Below, one piece after another: positions 1-8,881 of a stretch of 64,000 bases of DNA (positions are counted from its first letter, which is position 1; every line of letters starts with the position of its first letter). Under the pieces are notes generated by a model, which was given only the letters and a program-made list of their open reading frames with translations, searched no databases and was not told where the DNA came from. Where the stretch lies: contig NZ_FOUJ01000001.1 in NCBI RefSeq assembly GCF_900114835.1, positions 372,001-436,000 on the forward strand. Direction: 5' to 3'. Source of the stretch: Methanolobus profundi (GTDB lineage Archaea > Halobacteriota > Methanosarcinia > Methanosarcinales > Methanosarcinaceae). Made by a program: the position numbers and the translations under genes.

Positions 1-162
1 AGCTGGTATTACCTTCGTGATCGTGTCTCGTACAAGCAATTCTTTTTCAGGAGGATAGTCAAATATCCAAAAAGGAACTTCGTTACCAAGACCCCTTGCT
101 TTTAAGAAATCCTCTTTTTGGAGTTCTTCTTTTAGAAGTTCGAGTCTTTCTTCAAGTTTCAT
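1..162 (-). CDS. brxB: BREX protein BrxB (DUF1788), N-terminal fragment
   Basis: The reverse strand from 162 is open to the window edge and encodes 54 residues. The segment KARGLGNEVPFWIFDYPP followed by EKELLVRD matches the strongly conserved N-terminus of DUF1788/BrxB proteins (charged helix, then a GLGNE..F.IFDY.P..EL.VR block). BrxB is a small accessory protein of BREX phage-defence operons whose biochemical role is not settled. The gene reads out of the window to the left, so the remaining brx/pgl genes should lie there. It is divergent from mcrC across 282 bp, and no brxA-like gene precedes it. The family call rests on motif recognition in a short fragment; the presence of a complete BREX operon is inferred. 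Confidence 0.75.
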   Translation of the reverse strand, partial: MKLEERLELLKEELQKEDFLKARGLGNEVPFWIFDYPPEKELLVRDTITKVIPA

Positions 163-444
163 AGTTGCCTGCTTATTATCTCTAAAATTATTTAAAGATG
201 GTCTTTTTATTATATTGGCCATATTTGTTTTGACTTTCAATTTATTCCGACGTTTTACTTTCTTTAGTTGTTGGCTAGTCCTTCAAAACCTGAATCATTG
301 AATAAACAATCTAAGTCATTTTCTTTTTAAAATAGAAAATGTACATCAAGTATATATAATATTTTAGCATGTATGCTTCTAAAATTATTTGTTTTTCTTT
401 TATTAGTACAGAATTCCAGATTTGTCAATTGAATAAAGTGGATT
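163..444. promoter_or_regulatory. divergent brxB / mcrC promoter region
   Basis: This 282-bp AT-rich spacer separates the divergent starts of brxB and mcrC and contains no plausible gene. A TATA-like run (agtatatataatattttag, near 347-366) is suitably placed for rightward transcription towards mcrC with a leader of several tens of bases. Assignment as promoter is by position and composition only. Confidence 0.45.
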
Positions 445-1743
445 ATGATTTCCAACTCCCCAATAACTCTATTCGAATACGAATCCCTCTTCTACTCCGA
501 TCCCAGACTCAGTTCCTACTCTAATCATCTCGACCTCATCGACCAACTCAACCAGTCAAACGGTGAACTCCTGACCTTGCACCGCAACAGTCTACAGGCA
601 AAGCAGTATGTCGGGTTGATTCAGGTCAGGGATCTTTCTATAGAGATACTGCCAAAGATGTACAGGGATGGATTAACAGAGGCTGCACAGGTGGAGCATG
701 CTCAGAGGAATCTGTTGTATCTGCTGCATTACTGTTATGACATACCGATCTATGAGAGTGAGATCGCTCATATGGAGTCCCGGAAGGCAAACTGGTTCGA
801 GATACTGACCTTCATGTTCACCAGGACGCTTCAGGATATATTCAAGAAAGGGGCTCAGAAGCAGTATATCTCAGTAGAGGAGAATTTGCCTTACTTTAAG
901 GGAAAGTGTTTGATACAGAAACATATCGCAGTCAATAGTTTCAAGAAACACCTGTTCTATGTCAACTATGATGAGTTCAGTCCGGATATTCCATTGAACC
1001 AGATGCTCAAGTTTGTTGTCAATAAGTTAAAGCTCAGGTCACAGGACCTTGAGAACAGAAGGAATCTGCATATTCTGGATCAGGAGATGGACGATATATC
1101 ATTGGTATCAAATCCTGCTCCATTGCTTGATAAGGTCATCTTCACGAGGTTGAATGAGAATTATAGGCCGGTATTCAATCTGGCAAAGATGTTCATAGAA
1201 GGGAATGTCGTTGAAACATCGGTCGGTTCTACAGGTGCGTTTGCATTCACTTTTGATATGAATCTGCTATTTGAGCGTTTTATTGCTCGTTTTCTTAAAG
1301 AACATCAGGATTCGATTCTACCTGAACACCTTCAGAACTGTGGAATCTATTCACAGGCCGGTGGTAGAGAGCTTGCCAGGAATTTAAAGGATAGTAAAGT
1401 GTTCTGGTTAAGACCTGATATTCTTCTTGAAGAAAGAGGGCAGGCAAAATTGATCATCGATACAAAGTACAAGAAGCTGAAAAAAGAGGACAGAAAACTT
1501 GGAATTTCTATTTCAGACATGTATCAGATGGCTGCCTATGCAAGCAGATACTGTTGTTCCAATATCATTTTACTTTACCCTCGTACTGCAGGAGGAAATG
1601 AATCAATCCTTGAGGAATATACACTACAAGGAACAGGTCACAAGGTTAGGATAGCAACCGTGGACCTGCGAGTTGATCTGACTAATCCAATTAACAAAAT
1701 GAAACTTATAAACGATCTGAAAGGGATACTAGGAGAGGTTTAA
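445..1743 (+). CDS. mcrC: McrC-type nuclease subunit of an McrBC restriction system
   Basis: 432 residues, the normal length for McrC (PF10117). The N-terminal half carries the family block YVGLIQVRDLSIEILPKM. The C-terminal half is a PD-(D/E)XK nuclease: D325 in LRPDILL and D339-T-K341 in IIDTKYKKL supply the metal-binding D...D-x-K. McrC is the endonuclease that McrB, a GTP-driven AAA+ translocase, loads onto modified (classically methylcytosine) DNA. The order here is mcrC then mcrB, with a 2-bp gap, the reverse of E. coli. The ATG at 445 is preceded by AAGTGG. The target modification cannot be read from the sequence. Confidence 0.88.
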   Translation: MISNSPITLFEYESLFYSDPRLSSYSNHLDLIDQLNQSNGELLTLHRNSLQAKQYVGLIQVRDLSIEILPKMYRDGLTEAAQVEHAQRNLLYLLHYCYDIPIYESEIAHMESRKANWFEILTFMFTRTLQDIFKKGAQKQYISVEENLPYFKGKCLIQKHIAVNSFKKHLFYVNYDEFSPDIPLNQMLKFVVNKLKLRSQDLENRRNLHILDQEMDDISLVSNPAPLLDKVIFTRLNENYRPVFNLAKMFIEGNVVETSVGSTGAFAFTFDMNLLFERFIARFLKEHQDSILPEHLQNCGIYSQAGGRELARNLKDSKVFWLRPDILLEERGQAKLIIDTKYKKLKKEDRKLGISISDMYQMAAYASRYCCSNIILLYPRTAGGNESILEEYTLQGTGHKVRIATVDLRVDLTNPINKMKLINDLKGILGEV

Positions 1744-1745
1744 GA

Positions 1746-4238
1746 ATGGTGAATATATGGTTAATACGACCGGGTGAAGAAGCTCGTTTATGGGAAGAGT
1801 TCCAGAACAAAAAATGCATTGCAATCGGATGGGATGATGATAGTTACTCAAAGTATCAGTCTCTTGCAGATGTAAGGCTAGTACATCGTATGAACAATGC
1901 GAACTCTATCTGGTACTTCTACAAAAACATGAAAATAGGAGACATAGCTGTTGCTATCAAGGGTCAGAAGGGAATCCAGGGTATTGGCAAGATCACAAGC
2001 AGGTATATTGAACCAAATGATCCACAGAATCCCGAAATGGAATATGGACATGTACGATTTGTTGAATGGTTGATTGTTGATAAGGTAAGGGATCTCTCCT
2101 ATAATCTCCCACAAAAAACCATCACTCCACTGAAAGATACCTGGAAATGGGAAGAAATAAAGAATGAGTATATCCAGATCGATGAGAAGTATAAGGAAGT
2201 ATTTGTCGAATTGGAAAGTGGGAGCAAAGTTGACCTTTCACAATTTATAAGACCATTTATATCTGAATTGAATTCAGATGAGTTAAAGAATCGTCGAAAT
2301 GAGCTCATAGCCCGTAGTGAGAACGTACGCAGTAAAATAAGAACAGAATACTTCGAGTCATTAACTGAAGAAGACATCTTCGAGATCTTGAAAAATACAG
2401 AGGCTACATCTCTGGGGAGCCTTGAGTTTGATAGGATAATACGAGAGAACGATGGTTTTGACAAATTTAAAAGAAAACTAGTGGATTTTCTCGAAACAAC
2501 CAGCTTATCTGAGAGTGATGTTAGCAATCTCTTTACTTCATTTAATGGGTTGGGACGTGCCTATTCAACTGAATTAATGTGCTTAAAGCAACCTGATAAA
2601 TTCTGGATATGGAATTCACTAACAGACAAATTGTTTTCAAAGATGAGCATAGATATTGGACAAAACCTTTCTGCCGGTAAAAAGTATGTGGCTATGCAAA
2701 CACACATGTCCGATATTTTGCAGGAACTAAAAAGCACTGGCTTAGAAGATGCCACTTATTTAGATGTCTATCTATTTTCTAAATGGTTAAAAGACAAAGA
2801 TATTTCAGGTGGTCCTTATGGTGCAACAAATACCGCAGTTGTTCTAGATAATCCTCTACTCACAGGTGCACTGTCACATACAAAAAATGTGATTTTGTAT
2901 GGTCCTCCTGGAACCGGTAAAACATATACAGTTCAGCAATTCATAAAGACATTCCTAGCTGATCAGTTATCAAAACCAAAATCATTCGATGAGATCAAGA
3001 CTGAGTATCTTCAGGATTTGACATGGTATCAGATCACTGCATTATCAATGTATTTGAACCATAAAGACGAGAAAATAAAACTTACAGATCTAAGGAAGGA
3101 TGATTTGATTGCCTTTTATTTTGAAAGGGTAAAAGAAAATGCAAGTAACTTATCCAGGTCACTAGGAGCTACTCTGCAAATCTATTCTAATCCGAATAGT
3201 GAAACTGTAAAATATACAAATAAACACACACCTGCACTATTTGATAGAACAAATCAAAATGAATGGTACTTGATACCAGATGGTGTTGAATATGTTGAAA
3301 CAAATCTTTCTGAAATTATAGATGTTCTTTCAAAGAAGAATATAATAACTGAAGAAAGAACTATTGAACAGTTCTGCACTTTCGTCACGTTCCACCAGTC
3401 ATATGGATACGAGGATTTCATTGAAGGATTAAAACCAGTTGTCAATGACAATGGAGATGTTTCCTATAGAGTAGAAGCCGGTGTTTTCAAAGAGATAAGT
3501 GAAAGGGCCAGACATGATTCTGAAAACAATTATGTCCTTGTCATCGATGAGATCAACAGAGGAAATATTGCCAAGATATTCGGTGAACTTATCACTCTGA
3601 TTGAAGATGATAAGCGTAGTGAGGCGAACAAAAAAGGACTAAGTGTCAAACTTCCATATTCAAAAACAGAGTTCTCTGTACCTTCAAACCTTTATATCCT
3701 TGGAACCATGAACACTGCAGATCGTTCAATAGCATTACTGGATATTGCTTTGAGAAGACGGTTCACTTTCCTTGAAATCATGCCGGATTATTCTATTATC
3801 GAATTCGATGTTGGCGGAGTAAATATTGCTTCATTGCTGGAAGGGCTTAATATCACGGTTTCTGCGTTGATTGATAGAGACCATCAGATAGGTCACAGTT
3901 ACTTCTGTGACTTAGCAGATCAGGAAGAGGATTTAGCTAAAGACAAACTGTATTTTATCTGGTATAAGAAAATAATACCTCTGCTACAGGAGTATTTCTA
4001 TAATGACTGGGAGCAGCTCAAGCTTATTCTTGGGGATTTTGTTGTTGAGAATGGGACAAGCAGAGTTCCTGCTTTGAAGGATAAGATCGTTAACAAGAGT
4101 TATGAGATTAGGGATTTTGAAAGAGATTGGAATGCATTTTCTAGGGCTTTGAAGCATATTTATGAAGAACATAAAGATTCTATTTCAATAGAGGAATCAG
4201 CTGACTTGTCTACTGTGAATGATTCTACAGAGGAATAG
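1746..4238 (+). CDS. mcrB: McrB-type AAA+ GTPase with N-terminal EVE/PUA-like reader domain
   Basis: 830 residues. The Walker A is GPPGTGKT (386-393), the Walker B is VLVIDEINRGN (D601, E602) and the sensor block is NTADRS (656-661). IDEINRGNIAKIFGEL and NTADRSIALLDIALRRRF are diagnostic of McrB. The first ~115 residues (IWLIRPGEEARLWEEF...IAIGWDD...GIQGIGKI) resemble the EVE/PUA-like modules that replace the classical DUF3578 reader in many McrB proteins; residues ~170-350 are a linker of unknown fold. The start at 1746 has GGAGAGG 7 bp upstream, inside the mcrC end, so the two genes are translationally coupled. Role: modified-DNA recognition and nucleotide-driven activation of McrC. The reader assignment is less certain than the motor. 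Confidence 0.88.
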   Translation: MVNIWLIRPGEEARLWEEFQNKKCIAIGWDDDSYSKYQSLADVRLVHRMNNANSIWYFYKNMKIGDIAVAIKGQKGIQGIGKITSRYIEPNDPQNPEMEYGHVRFVEWLIVDKVRDLSYNLPQKTITPLKDTWKWEEIKNEYIQIDEKYKEVFVELESGSKVDLSQFIRPFISELNSDELKNRRNELIARSENVRSKIRTEYFESLTEEDIFEILKNTEATSLGSLEFDRIIRENDGFDKFKRKLVDFLETTSLSESDVSNLFTSFNGLGRAYSTELMCLKQPDKFWIWNSLTDKLFSKMSIDIGQNLSAGKKYVAMQTHMSDILQELKSTGLEDATYLDVYLFSKWLKDKDISGGPYGATNTAVVLDNPLLTGALSHTKNVILYGPPGTGKTYTVQQFIKTFLADQLSKPKSFDEIKTEYLQDLTWYQITALSMYLNHKDEKIKLTDLRKDDLIAFYFERVKENASNLSRSLGATLQIYSNPNSETVKYTNKHTPALFDRTNQNEWYLIPDGVEYVETNLSEIIDVLSKKNIITEERTIEQFCTFVTFHQSYGYEDFIEGLKPVVNDNGDVSYRVEAGVFKEISERARHDSENNYVLVIDEINRGNIAKIFGELITLIEDDKRSEANKKGLSVKLPYSKTEFSVPSNLYILGTMNTADRSIALLDIALRRRFTFLEIMPDYSIIEFDVGGVNIASLLEGLNITVSALIDRDHQIGHSYFCDLADQEEDLAKDKLYFIWYKKIIPLLQEYFYNDWEQLKLILGDFVVENGTSRVPALKDKIVNKSYEIRDFERDWNAFSRALKHIYEEHKDSISIEESADLSTVNDSTEE

Positions 4239-4637
4239 AGTATTTCACCTTTATCAGACTGTAACAAGAAGCCACCCATTTTAATGGGTGGTAACTGACT
4301 ATTGATTTCAGGAAAAAACACATCAATTACATTGCTTATTTCGTAAACAATGACCTTTCTGTCATCCATGATTTCATACTCCGTTTTTGATGTACAGATC
4401 TATTCCATAGTCAGAAACGAATTTAGATGACTTAAAACAATATCCTTGTTTTTGTTGAGTTCACCTACAAAATAGTCTCTGAACTCTATTACACTTGATT
4501 TCAGGAGATATTTCCTACAATCCTTTATAATGTACTGCCAGAATCCCAAAGATATTGTTTTTTCTTCTTATTTTCAAAAAATATCATGACATCTAAAAAA
4601 ACATATAACCAATGTAGATACTCTATTAATAAAACGG
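4239..4637. other. 399-bp spacer with a possible decayed gene
   Basis: No intact gene is visible between mcrB and the helicase. On the minus strand a short stretch about 4563-4400 reads like protein (FWQYIIKDCRKYLLKSSVIE..., then an amber stop). It could be the remains of a gene, but neither end is intact and I do not recognise a family. A short hairpin-forming CCACCCATTTTAATGGGTGG lies at about 4273-4292, just past mcrB, and may act as a terminator. Confidence 0.3.
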
Positions 4638-7600
4638 GTGATCTTCATTCATCAAAACACAAACGAATCATTCAAGTTTTCAAATCAGCACATACCTATG
4701 GAATATGCGTGTGATTCTAATGGAGATGTTCTGTATATCACCCAAAGAGAAGAAACTGCAGCTGCTTCTGGGCTTTTCTGTTTGTTATGTGATAAAGAAG
4801 TGATTGCAAAGAACAAGCAAGATTTCCCAAAGAGAAGGTGGCATTTCGCCCATAAAGCAATTGGAGAAAAAGAACATTCATTAGAATCCATAATCCATCT
4901 AAATGCCACAATGAAGGTCTATGACATTTTAAGCTCAAAATTGGATTCAGATGAATCATTAATCTTCAAATTTAGATGTCCTCGATACAATATTGATCAA
5001 TACTACAATAGAATTCCTTTTCCTCTTGAACAACAAGATGGGCTCCGAACTTCTGACTCTTATACCTTTGACATGTTGAAAGATGCAACAGTTATTGAAT
5101 TGGAGAAGCCTTACTCGAATATTGTTCCAGATATTTCTATCTGGAATAATAACAAGATAGTAGCTGCAATTGAGATAACATCAACTCGTGATGTCAGTCT
5201 CAAAAAAAGACAGTTATATAAAGAACATAAGATTCCTGTTATTTTTATTGATGTTTCAACCATTGACAACTATCTTTATTTCGAAAGATCTTCGTTTGAT
5301 GAAGAAAGTATCATTTCTAGTGAAATATATACTTTAATCTTAAACAATCCATGTCAAAAGTACTGTGATTTCACCCATTTTCTCACTACTAAGGAAATGC
5401 TACTCGATCAATTCAAAAGAAAAGAAATGCAGTCTCAAATTAAAGTAAATGAATTTCAGCAGGCATTTACTCTTATAACAGAGGAAACTTCAATAAGTTC
5501 TCTTCCTAAGGTTTTACAAGAGACACCTAGAATTAGAATCGATTCTCTTTCTCTTCCCAGGGAAGCAATTGAGATCTATACGAATGCCGGTATTGAAGAA
5601 TTATATCCTCCCCAGAGTGAGATTGTAAACAAAGGTCTTTTGGAGGGAAATAATATCCTTGCAGCTATTCCAACAGCATGTGGGAAAACACTGGTTGCAG
5701 AGCTTGCTATGCTCAAACATGTTCTTAATGGCGGCAAAGCCCTCTACATTGTTCCCCTGAGGGCCTTGGCAAATGAGAAGTATGAAAGATTCAAGGAATT
5801 CGAATCACTAGGCATAAAGACAGGGATCTCTACCGGAGAACTTGAGTCTAAAAGTGAACAACTCGGTAAGAATGATATCATCGTCTGTACTTCTGAGAAA
5901 ACAGACTCAATGCTTCGCAATGGTACAACTTGGCTACAGGACTTATCCATTGTTGTTGTTGATGAAGTTCATCTCCTAGGAGATTCTCTTAGAGGTCCTA
6001 CTGTAGATATTGTTATAACAAAGCTAAGGAGTATTCCAGACCTACAGATAGTTTCTCTTTCTGCCACAATTGGAAATGCAGAGGTTCTTGCAGAATGGTT
6101 AGATGCTGAACTTGTTGTCAGTGAATGGAGACCAACAGTACTGAATGAAGGAATTGCAATCGGTAAAGCAATGAACTTTTTTACTGGAGAAAATCCTCAT
6201 CAAGAGAAAATAAAGCATGATACAAAGGACATTAGTGCAAATATTGTCCTTGATACAATAGAGCAAGGAGCCCAATGTCTTGTATTTGAAAGCAGTCGAA
6301 GAAATTGTGCAGGCTTTGCTAAGAGATTCTCAAATATTAAGAATCAAGAACAAAGAGCAATAAATGCTTTGTTAGACAACGATAGCAAGAAAGAACTTGC
6401 TGTAATTGCCGATGAGGTTGAACTGTCAAGTAATACCGGTGAAGCAAAGATCCTTGCAGACTGCATTCGTAATGGTTCAGCATATCATCATGCAGGTCTT
6501 AATTCCACTCAGAGAAAACTTGTAGAAGAAGGATTCAAGAACAACTTGATCAAGATAATTTCCTGTACACCAACTTTAGCAGCGGGTATAAATCTTCCAG
6601 CACGAAAGGTTATTATTCGAAATTATTCACGTTTTAATCCAGAATGGGGTATGGTTCCTATTCCTGTCCTTGAATATAAGCAAATGGTAGGAAGAGCAGG
6701 CCGACCACATTTAGATCCTGAAGGTTTTTCTCTTCTTCTTGCTAAAGAAGCTGGCGATATAGATGAACTAAAAGAAAAATATATCTTCGCAACAGCAGAA
6801 GATATCGATTCATACCTACGTGATGAATCAATTCTACGCAGTCATGTACTCGGAATTATAAGCAGTAGTTCATCGATATCACAACAAGGTATCATTGAAT
6901 TCTTCTTAAGAACATTCTCTGCACATACTGGCGATGATAATGAATTTATCGAAAGTATCTATTCCTGCATCGAATTTCTTCAAAATCATGAAATGATAAC
7001 GAATGAAAACAATCTTTACATGCCTACCAGTCTTGGACTATTGGTTTCCCGGATGTACATTAATCCACTGACTGCAGCAATTATCACCGAAAAATTGGAA
7101 TATGCAATGCAATCAAAAATGAAATTAACAATTCTTTCTTTACTCCAATTAGTCTGTATAACTGATGAAATTAGATCTGTTTACATAAAGAACCCCGAAC
7201 TAGTAGAGTATTCATGCATTGCTTTGAAAATCAAAGAAGAAATCATTTGCCCACCCGAGGAACATGCTGACCTTCCTTATGAATATCAATCTTATCTTGA
7301 ATCTTTAAAGAATACCTTAATTTTAAAAGACTGGATTAACGAAGTTGATACCGAAATAATTGTTGAAAAATACTCTACCGGAGAAGGAGACCTTCATAAT
7401 CTATCCAGTGGTGCAGCAAGAATTGCTTCTGCAATCAATCGAATTGCTGCTCTTCGAGAATATGATATACCTTTTAATGGACTTGATATTCGTTTGGAAT
7501 ATGGGGCAGGTCCTGAACTTGTTGATCTCCTTAAAATAAAGAATGTAGGAAGAAAAAGAGCTAGATTACTATATACAAATCATGTCAGGTCAGTTGAAAC

Positions 7601-7769
7601 ATTAAAAACCTGTTCTTTTGAGCAAGTATCCAAGCTGCTCGGTGAAAAGATAACCTTAAAGATATTCAAGCAACTGTCGATGCCAGTACCACCCAGTGTA
7701 GAAAACTCTATTCAAGCTGCTGTAAAAAACTCTGTTGTTGATGCTCAGAAATCCTTATTTGATTTCTAA
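4638..7769 (+). CDS. CoiA-like PD-(D/E)XK nuclease fused to a Hel308-like Ski2 helicase
   Basis: 1043 residues. The N-terminal ~230 residues resemble the CoiA competence nuclease family: a C48-x2-C51 pair, then HFAH (69-72), then a PD-(D/E)XK-like core with D165 (VPDIS) and E179-I-T181 (AIEIT), where the usual lysine is replaced. Residues ~300-1000 form a Ski2-family helicase of Hel308 type: Walker A PTACGKT (345-351), DEVH box (442-445), LSATIGNAE, SSRRNCAGFAKRF, TPTLAAGINLPARKVII and QMVGRAGRP, followed by a ratchet-like segment and C-terminal helix-hairpin-helix region (LLKIKNVGRKRARLLY). Ordinary Hel308 is ~700-750 residues and lacks the nuclease. The start is a GTG at 4638; an ATG at 4698 is the alternative. 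It follows mcrCB on the same strand after 399 bp, in a defence neighbourhood. A role in DNA defence or repair is inferred. Confidence 0.75.
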   Translation: MIFIHQNTNESFKFSNQHIPMEYACDSNGDVLYITQREETAAASGLFCLLCDKEVIAKNKQDFPKRRWHFAHKAIGEKEHSLESIIHLNATMKVYDILSSKLDSDESLIFKFRCPRYNIDQYYNRIPFPLEQQDGLRTSDSYTFDMLKDATVIELEKPYSNIVPDISIWNNNKIVAAIEITSTRDVSLKKRQLYKEHKIPVIFIDVSTIDNYLYFERSSFDEESIISSEIYTLILNNPCQKYCDFTHFLTTKEMLLDQFKRKEMQSQIKVNEFQQAFTLITEETSISSLPKVLQETPRIRIDSLSLPREAIEIYTNAGIEELYPPQSEIVNKGLLEGNNILAAIPTACGKTLVAELAMLKHVLNGGKALYIVPLRALANEKYERFKEFESLGIKTGISTGELESKSEQLGKNDIIVCTSEKTDSMLRNGTTWLQDLSIVVVDEVHLLGDSLRGPTVDIVITKLRSIPDLQIVSLSATIGNAEVLAEWLDAELVVSEWRPTVLNEGIAIGKAMNFFTGENPHQEKIKHDTKDISANIVLDTIEQGAQCLVFESSRRNCAGFAKRFSNIKNQEQRAINALLDNDSKKELAVIADEVELSSNTGEAKILADCIRNGSAYHHAGLNSTQRKLVEEGFKNNLIKIISCTPTLAAGINLPARKVIIRNYSRFNPEWGMVPIPVLEYKQMVGRAGRPHLDPEGFSLLLAKEAGDIDELKEKYIFATAEDIDSYLRDESILRSHVLGIISSSSSISQQGIIEFFLRTFSAHTGDDNEFIESIYSCIEFLQNHEMITNENNLYMPTSLGLLVSRMYINPLTAAIITEKLEYAMQSKMKLTILSLLQLVCITDEIRSVYIKNPELVEYSCIALKIKEEIICPPEEHADLPYEYQSYLESLKNTLILKDWINEVDTEIIVEKYSTGEGDLHNLSSGAARIASAINRIAALREYDIPFNGLDIRLEYGAGPELVDLLKIKNVGRKRARLLYTNHVRSVETLKTCSFEQVSKLLGEKITLKIFKQLSMPVPPSVENSIQAAVKNSVVDAQKSLFDF

Positions 7770-7903: not shown

Positions 7904-8881
7904 TCATATTATTGCTGTGAAAAATAAACTAAAAATCTCCATTGATCTTTTTGCATAGCCAGATACCTTCTTTAATTGTGAAAATAATGGCTCTGTAGAA
8001 ATCCTCATCTGAACAATAAACATAACCTTGGCACACCTGTCAAGATTATGTACCAACAGTTTGAATTTGACCTCTTTGACTTGATTCCAATACTTTTTTG
8101 CTTTAATTTCTTCTCCATACTTTCTTTTCAGAACAGAGAACATCGTTTCAACCAAGTTTCTGTTATGATACAAGTCCCTGTCAAATTCCCATTCCATTTT
8201 TCTGCGATATTTGCCTTTGACTCTCTTCCTTTTTCTTTGTCTCAAAGGAATCATAGCTATCGCATCTAATTGTTCTTTTGTTAGTGAATGTATATTTTCT
8301 GAATCGTATCCTTTGTCCATGACATAGTATTTTGATTTGCGGGTTTTATGACATTGCTTCAGCAATGTCATTGCATGTTTTGCATCATGCACAGGTTTAC
8401 CTGATATCTTAAATCCCGTCACAATTAATTTTGCAGTATCAACAGAAATGCTAGTTTTCAGGAATGATCTACGTTTCTTTCCTGTTCTCCAAGAATAATA
8501 GTGGCTACAATGTCCACTAGTAAACCCACTTGAATCAATAGCGGTAATCTCTATCTGCTCACCATATGAATAAAAGAGCTTTAATGTTTGTTGTAGCAAT
8601 CCACTAAAATATACGGACTTGAGTCTACTAATGAATTTTTGAAGGGTAGTAAAATGTGGAACCTGCTTTAACCCTATTCTTGTTTTGACCTCATCCATTA
8701 CTTCGATAAGTTCAACAATATCTCTATAGTCTTCAATAAGGTAATCTTTCAACAATATCAATGTCAATAGCTGGTGCTGAGTGTATTTTCTTTTAGAATA
8801 TTTGCAACTATATATCTGAAGGTGTGAATTTCCTGATACAGCTAAAGCTGTATCAACAAACTTTAAGTACTTATTAACCAA
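7904..8881 (-). CDS. IS5-family DDE transposase reading out of its element
   Basis: 325 residues in the annotated frame. Catalytic DDE residues are D116 (AIDSSGF), D189 (YVMDKGYDS) and E245 ([15 protein letters not shown]), the spacing of IS4/IS5-type transposases. Only residues 1-297 lie inside the element: the inverted repeat ends at codon 298 (STEP), no stop lies inside the IS, and the last ~28 residues ([15 protein letters not shown]...) come from host DNA. The protein may still be active, since the catalytic core is complete. The ATG at 8881 is the first of the frame. The function is transposition of this element. Confidence 0.85.
7989..8004 (+). repeat. left terminal inverted repeat of the IS
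   Basis: GGCTCTGTAGAAATCC pairs with 8973-8988 in inverted orientation (14 of 16). It overlaps the codons for the last residues (ISTEP) of the transposase. Confidence 0.85.

Follow-up and report, generated by a model that had tools for sequence, protein, structure and literature searches.

CoiA-like domains have been joined repeatedly to the repair helicase Hel308 in Methanosarcinaceae

Archaea and animals share the repair helicase Hel308 (HELQ/POLQ family), which binds forked DNA and unwinds it in the 3' to 5' direction. CoiA, in contrast, comes from bacterial transformation, where it is an orphan. In the stretch of Methanolobus profundi DNA analysed here (64,000 nucleotides, referred to as the window), one gene appears to join a CoiA-like domain to a complete Hel308, in the company of defence genes. 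What could such a domain be doing on a repair helicase, and does the protein serve defence, repair or both? To answer this, we analysed the protein, its surroundings and its relatives. The features of the locus are collected in Table 1.

Table 1. Features of the fusion gene and its surroundings (nucleotide positions are those of the window unless stated otherwise)
Feature	Position	Strand	Evidence or remark
brxB, 5' part	1..240	-	PADLOC BrxB 2e-69; divergent, at the window edge
brxC, pglX	outside the window, G000:C7:366-371 kb		PADLOC BrxC E 0, PglX 3e-262
pglZ- and brxL-like genes	beyond brxC/pglX in G000		by reading and position only
mcrC	445..1743	+	PF10117, E 2.4e-78
mcrB-type AAA ATPase	1746..4238	+	AAA_5; adjacent to mcrC
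CoiA-like nuclease domain-Hel308 fusion gene	4638..7769	+	1043 aa; GTG start; profile and motif evidence
N-domain (residues ~20-215): zinc ribbon C48/C51/H69/H72, then PD-(D/E)XK-like core	4695..5282	+	invariant columns, CoiA_N, hhalign, AF2
E83-x3-H87, invariant helix motif common to CoiA-type N-domains	4884..4898	+	alignment
Putative active-site hairpin P164-D165 ... E179-I-T181	5127..5180	+	alignment and model
Variable linker (residues 216-299)	5283..5534	+	dN/dS 0.66
Hel308 part, full-length (residues 300-1043)	5535..7766	+	Pfam, PRK02362, motif reading
Hel308 motifs	residues 345-351 (Walker A PTACGKT), 442-445 (DEVH), 475-477 (SAT), 685-690 (GRAGRP)		
Hel308 C-terminal domains	residues 833-956 (domain 4), 963-1008 (HhH)		
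IS transposase, downstream boundary of the fusion gene	7904..8881	-	PF01609, E 5e-20

A full-length Hel308 with a CoiA-like N-terminal domain

The gene is a single uninterrupted frame. Its true start is uncertain, as an in-frame ATG at 4698 (Met21), which coincides with the beginning of the solo relatives of the N-domain, is an alternative to the GTG. Residues 300-1043 matched the NCBIfam model of Hel308 (PRK02362) over positions 2-738 of 739, with 859.5 bits and an E of 2e-258, slightly under the curated cut-off of 887. Pfam detected DEAD, Helicase_C and Helicase_dom4_arc (4.9e-22), as well as HHH_5 at 3.5e-4, under its own cut-off. The protein thus matches Hel308 over its whole length, including domain 4 and the HhH domain 5, with the Walker A, DEVH, SAT and GRAGRP motifs all intact, and it carries about 300 additional N-terminal residues that include the nuclease-like module. 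Domain calls and motifs support the proposal, made in an earlier note on this DNA from its letters alone, that a nuclease-like module of the CoiA type precedes a complete Hel308, and the motifs that it had placed (C48...C51, H69-F-A-H72, D165, E179-I-T181, PTACGKT and DEVH) are where it had read them.

When we compared the window protein with its orthologue in genome G002, dN/dS was 0.10 for the helicase, 0.21 for the N-domain (residues 20-215) and 0.66 for the linker. Both functional parts are therefore maintained, and the gene is under purifying selection. One could argue that the fusion is a product of gene decay or of assembly errors. The first is ruled out by the lack of stops and by dN/dS values of 0.10-0.21, and the second by the continuous frames and by the G002 and G024 genomes, which are single-contig.

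Regarding the N-domain, we aligned 12 sequences with 21-28% identity to the window protein (87% in the G002 orthologue). All of them keep residues C48, C51, H69, H72, E83, H87, E156, P164, D165 and E179, and the motifs are not due to chance because they are invariant at this level of identity. The zinc-ribbon cysteines read C48-L-L-C51 in the window protein, and the E-x3-H motif reads E-T-D-W-H in the fusions of G022 and G024. The E-x3-H, D and E positions are also present in separately fused CoiA-type domains. Comparison with the CoiA profiles gave a mixed outcome for the earlier note's assignment. In the window protein, CoiA_N (PF25164) reached 19.3 bits, below the gathering cut-off of 26.3, and CoiA_nuc (PF06054) gave no match. 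Six of the seven N-domain family members tested matched CoiA_N, the best of them at 3.9e-11, and other fusions scored above the cut-off (1.8e-12 in G426 and 2.2e-8 in G022). An hhalign comparison between the N-domain alignment (A3, too diverse to serve as a scanning profile) and a CoiA alignment, composed of the G022 and G024 domains and four plasmid proteins annotated as CoiA, gave an E of 3.1e-9 (96%), convincing over the ribbon and the first helix only. Residues 179-181 are E-I-T in the window protein vs E-L-Q in the G022 and G024 domains.

We also predicted the structures of the window N-domain and of one compact bacterial relative with AF2, both at low confidence (pLDDT 53 and 57). In the window model, the elements follow the order helix (with E83 and H87), strand, D165 strand, E179 strand, helix and strand. 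This topology agrees, at those pLDDT values, with the PD-(D/E)XK core that we sought, alpha-beta-beta-beta-alpha-beta with acidic residues on the hairpin. The best structural matches of the two low-confidence models were mostly PD-(D/E)XK nucleases (Z up to 8.6; 3hrl, I-Bth0305I, 1wdj and Bax1 among them), so that restriction-endonuclease-like folds prevail, in line with the nuclease module of the earlier note. Foldseek with the N-domain model returned nothing significant (best E 0.09), and a sequence search of the PDB gave no relevant match. By profile, motif and predicted fold, the N-domain appears to be CoiA-like, weakly so for the window protein taken alone.

Neighbourhood, copies and relatives

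The fusion gene lies downstream of mcrC and mcrB on the same strand, with a brx gene nearby, and the PF10117, AAA_5 and PADLOC matches bear out this reading of the neighbourhood. A hairpin (ccacccattttaatgggtgg) at 4271-4292, between mcrB and the fusion gene, is perhaps a terminator. The copies of the window genome (G000) and G002 have only about 3.4 kb in common, 92% identical, and their immediate flanks are unrelated; therefore, the fusion gene moved as a unit. Both copies are found beside an McrBC and BREX cluster, which confirms the defence neighbourhood for this clade; BrxB, BrxC and PglX of the window genome were identified by PADLOC, and the BREX genes of G002 by reading and position. 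The CoiA-Hel308 combination as such is absent from PADLOC, as the earlier note had expected of the standard defence lists. The G002 island also holds, near the fusion (L046:4165-9367), a prokaryotic viperin (PADLOC pVip 7e-79), a Csa3/CARF protein and a TPR protein.

The canonical Hel308 of the window genome is a plain protein of 747 aa encoded in the usual place, between trpB and hisD, and is 47% identical to the fusion helicase. With a normal Hel308 also in the genome, the fusion is therefore an extra copy. A third Hel308-like gene is found at about 925-928 kb of the same contig (L047:4888-8118, minus strand). Its product, a Hel308/HamB-like helicase of 1076 aa, carries at its C-terminus a PNP_UDP_1 domain (5.9e-18), which also matches the PADLOC effector profile PN-superfamily (2.4e-18), a second effector joined to a Hel308-like helicase in this genome.

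We detected relatives of the N-domain, mostly solo proteins of about 250-480 aa, in six Methanolobus genomes and in the neighbouring genus Methanococcoides; a small number of further genomes of the phylum and two Poribacteria also have them. A search of our genome contig collection returned solo homologues only, including those of Poribacteria. Neither the phage records nor five scans of viral contigs gave an N-domain match. The view of CoiA as a competence protein of Firmicutes proved too narrow: the family is also archaeal, and plasmids of proteobacteria and actinobacteria carry members of it. In E. coli, moreover, an anti-phage selection yielded a protein with a CoiA domain (PMC9519451). 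Two solo relatives have neighbours of their own. In G226, a CoiA-like protein is encoded immediately downstream of a 1522-aa HerA/FtsK-like ATPase (L073:3195-8892), possibly a further defence pair. In G026, another lies next to genes that we took, from reading and position, for PglZ-like and BrxL-like ones (L050:1926-8288), which suggests a link between the family and BREX.

Repeated origin of the fusion

We searched 109 genomes of the family plus the window genome, within a sample of about 450 genomes of one phylum. Six Methanosarcinaceae genomes (G000, G002, G384, G426, G022 and G024) encode a Hel308 with a large N-terminal extension, and all six extensions contain a CoiA-like domain. Other long or additional Hel308 proteins were rejected as fusions: the ten haloarchaeal frames that we read are high-GC open frames with no CoiA motif, the long Hel308 of G034 has low-complexity inserts and no CoiA domain, and an extra Hel308 of G001 (L053:7752-10031, minus strand) has no N-domain and has lost its Walker A (TSFVSEKRL).

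We built two helicase trees from different samples. Well-supported branches force five changes of state in each of them, and 0% of the bootstraps had a single change. Fusion helicases pair with plain ones (G384 with G036, G426 with G422, G022 with G007, and G024 with the plain copy of G000), and those of G000 and G002 lie apart, next to a helicase from a Methanomethylovorans hollandica plasmid. Among plain Hel308 proteins, the one encoded on this plasmid (NC_019972, L158:5740-7998, minus strand) is closest to the helicase of the window fusion, and plasmids may spread hel308 genes. Five changes in a tree could in principle include losses, and we therefore compared the N-domains among the fusions. 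They are closer to different solo proteins than to each other, except for those of G022 and G024, which are 49% identical and could come from a common donor.

In three cases, the DNA itself is decisive and marks the point of insertion. Between G384 and G036, identity is 94% in the gene upstream and again from the Hel308 start codon on, through hisD; the stretch in between differs and, in G384, holds the CoiA domain. We found the same kind of boundary between G022 and G007 and between G024 and G000, so that in G384, G022 and G024 the homology to plain-hel308 relatives ends at the ancestral hel308 start. These three loci show a clean insertion of a CoiA cassette at the start codon of the ancestral hel308. 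According to these results, the CoiA-Hel308 architecture arose repeatedly and independently, which suggests that CoiA-type and Hel308 activities may work together.

In G384, G022 and G024, the fusion lies at the normal chromosomal locus of hel308, beside hisD. No other Hel308 was found in G384 (94% complete) or G022 (99% complete), and the fusion is probably also the only one of G426, a contig-cut genome that is 76% complete. The earlier note had foreseen a single-protein effector of defence or repair. The defence context stands, as two orthologous copies and their co-location with defence genes, but a solely defensive architecture does not, given the three genomes with the fusion at the hel308 locus, where the other placed fusions lie. 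The contexts are thus mixed rather than purely housekeeping, and defence is one context of the fusion, not the only one.

Possible function and comparison with known systems

On the combined weight of sequence and models, we lean, a little beyond an even chance, towards a Hel308-guided, structure-selective nuclease that was recruited to a defence island in the window genome. The Hel308 part would load on forked or single-stranded DNA and move 3' to 5' using ATP, bringing the putative nuclease to DNA that is branched or unwound. Cleavage would then be confined to structures that are abnormal or replicating. The nuclease would, in most of the fusions, arm the cell's own repair or fork helicase. 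The separate mobile copy of the window would most likely attack foreign DNA during its replication or recombination and leave the housekeeping to the ordinary Hel308 of the same genome. Fusion to the cell's sole Hel308 would imply that cleavage is restrained or structure-specific, whereas the extra copy in the window would be free to specialise, and its island location suggests defence.

One could argue that the protein serves repair and not defence, with the CoiA domain cutting the recombination or fork intermediates that Hel308 unwinds and the island copy being a hitchhiker or a repair helper. The fusions beside hisD, two of them the sole Hel308 of their genomes, speak for this reading, as does the link of CoiA to DNA uptake and recombination during transformation (PMC1189080). 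Yet G000 and G002 keep an ordinary Hel308, and the fusion is there a mobile extra gene inside McrBC and BREX islands, so we regard a pure repair role as the less likely of the two, though a serious competitor.

That the N-domain is no nuclease, and that its zinc ribbon and restriction-endonuclease-like fold instead steer Hel308 by binding DNA or a partner protein, seems improbable to us. It would fit the low confidence of the predicted structure and the missing lysine, which the earlier note had rightly noticed and read as possible inactivity or the use of another residue. This lysine of the ExK position is absent from the window N-domain and from all aligned relatives, but CoiA itself is a PD-EXQ variant that lacks it, as in BglII (PMC1189080). 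Because the absence is family-wide and shared with CoiA, it is no sign of decay or inactivity, and H87 or another residue may serve in its place. The invariance of E83, H87, E156, D165 and E179 at 21-28% identity, and the recurrence of the E-x3-H, D and E positions in separately fused domains, also argue against a non-catalytic role. Equally hard to sustain is a single-chain, Hachiman-like damage sensor and suicide nuclease, in which the helicase would restrain the nuclease until damaged or viral DNA is met and host and virus DNA are then degraded: the authors of the Hachiman work liken HamB to Hel308 in function, with HamA as its nuclease (PMC12278908), and PADLOC HamB profiles match the fusion helicase with 171 bits, but Hel308 fits far better (859 bits), the N-domain gave no HamA (DUF1837) match in PADLOC or Pfam, and a sole housekeeping Hel308 that bears the same kind of nuclease elsewhere argues against broad toxicity.

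Returning to the structure-selective nuclease, a bolder extension, which we find rather doubtful, is that Methanosarcinaceae repeatedly arm their own repair helicase by placing a CoiA cassette at the start codon of hel308, so that surveillance of the genome becomes surveillance against viruses, with the window gene as a specialised mobile descendant. If this were true, the nucleoside-phosphorylase fusion of the same genome would make Hel308 a general sensor that takes different effectors. Apart from this extension, the several independent fusions are in themselves evidence of unusual strength that a nuclease of the CoiA type works on DNA structures handled by Hel308, and they make the substrate of CoiA directly testable.

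Helicase-nuclease pairings are of a known kind; the pairing of CoiA with Hel308 and its repeated origin appear to be new. Of the open papers that we searched, none names the two together, which leaves the novelty provisional, and CoiA is not mentioned in a survey of archaeal immunity (PMC12988326). Compared with Hel308, the archaeal Ski2-like DNA helicase (PRK02362/NF040935), the fusion spans the whole profile, including domain 4 and HhH; unlike it, the fusion has an N-terminal nuclease-like module and, in the window, is an extra copy in a defence island. With the CoiA family (PF25164 CoiA_N, PF06054 CoiA_nuc) it shares the C-x2-C...HFxH ribbon, the E-x3-H helix and a predicted PD-(D/E)XK-type core that lacks the lysine, whereas the window protein has E-I-T instead of E-x-Q, a sub-threshold CoiA_N, no CoiA_nuc and a fused helicase. 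Bax1-XPB, which functions in nucleotide excision repair, is a comparable case, an archaeal SF2 helicase acting with a PD-(D/E)XK nuclease, the one that recurs among the structural matches of the N-domain, but its components are separate proteins and its helicase is another one. Finally, Hachiman (HamA-HamB) follows a similar logic, a nuclease paired with a Hel308-related SF2 helicase in a defence context. It consists, however, of two proteins with a HamA nuclease, whereas the window encodes a single protein with a CoiA-like nuclease domain and a true Hel308, and membership is rejected because neither PADLOC nor Pfam gave a HamA match. The fusion gene offers a possible path from a housekeeping repair helicase to an immune effector, one that parallels the proposed kinship of HamB with Hel308.
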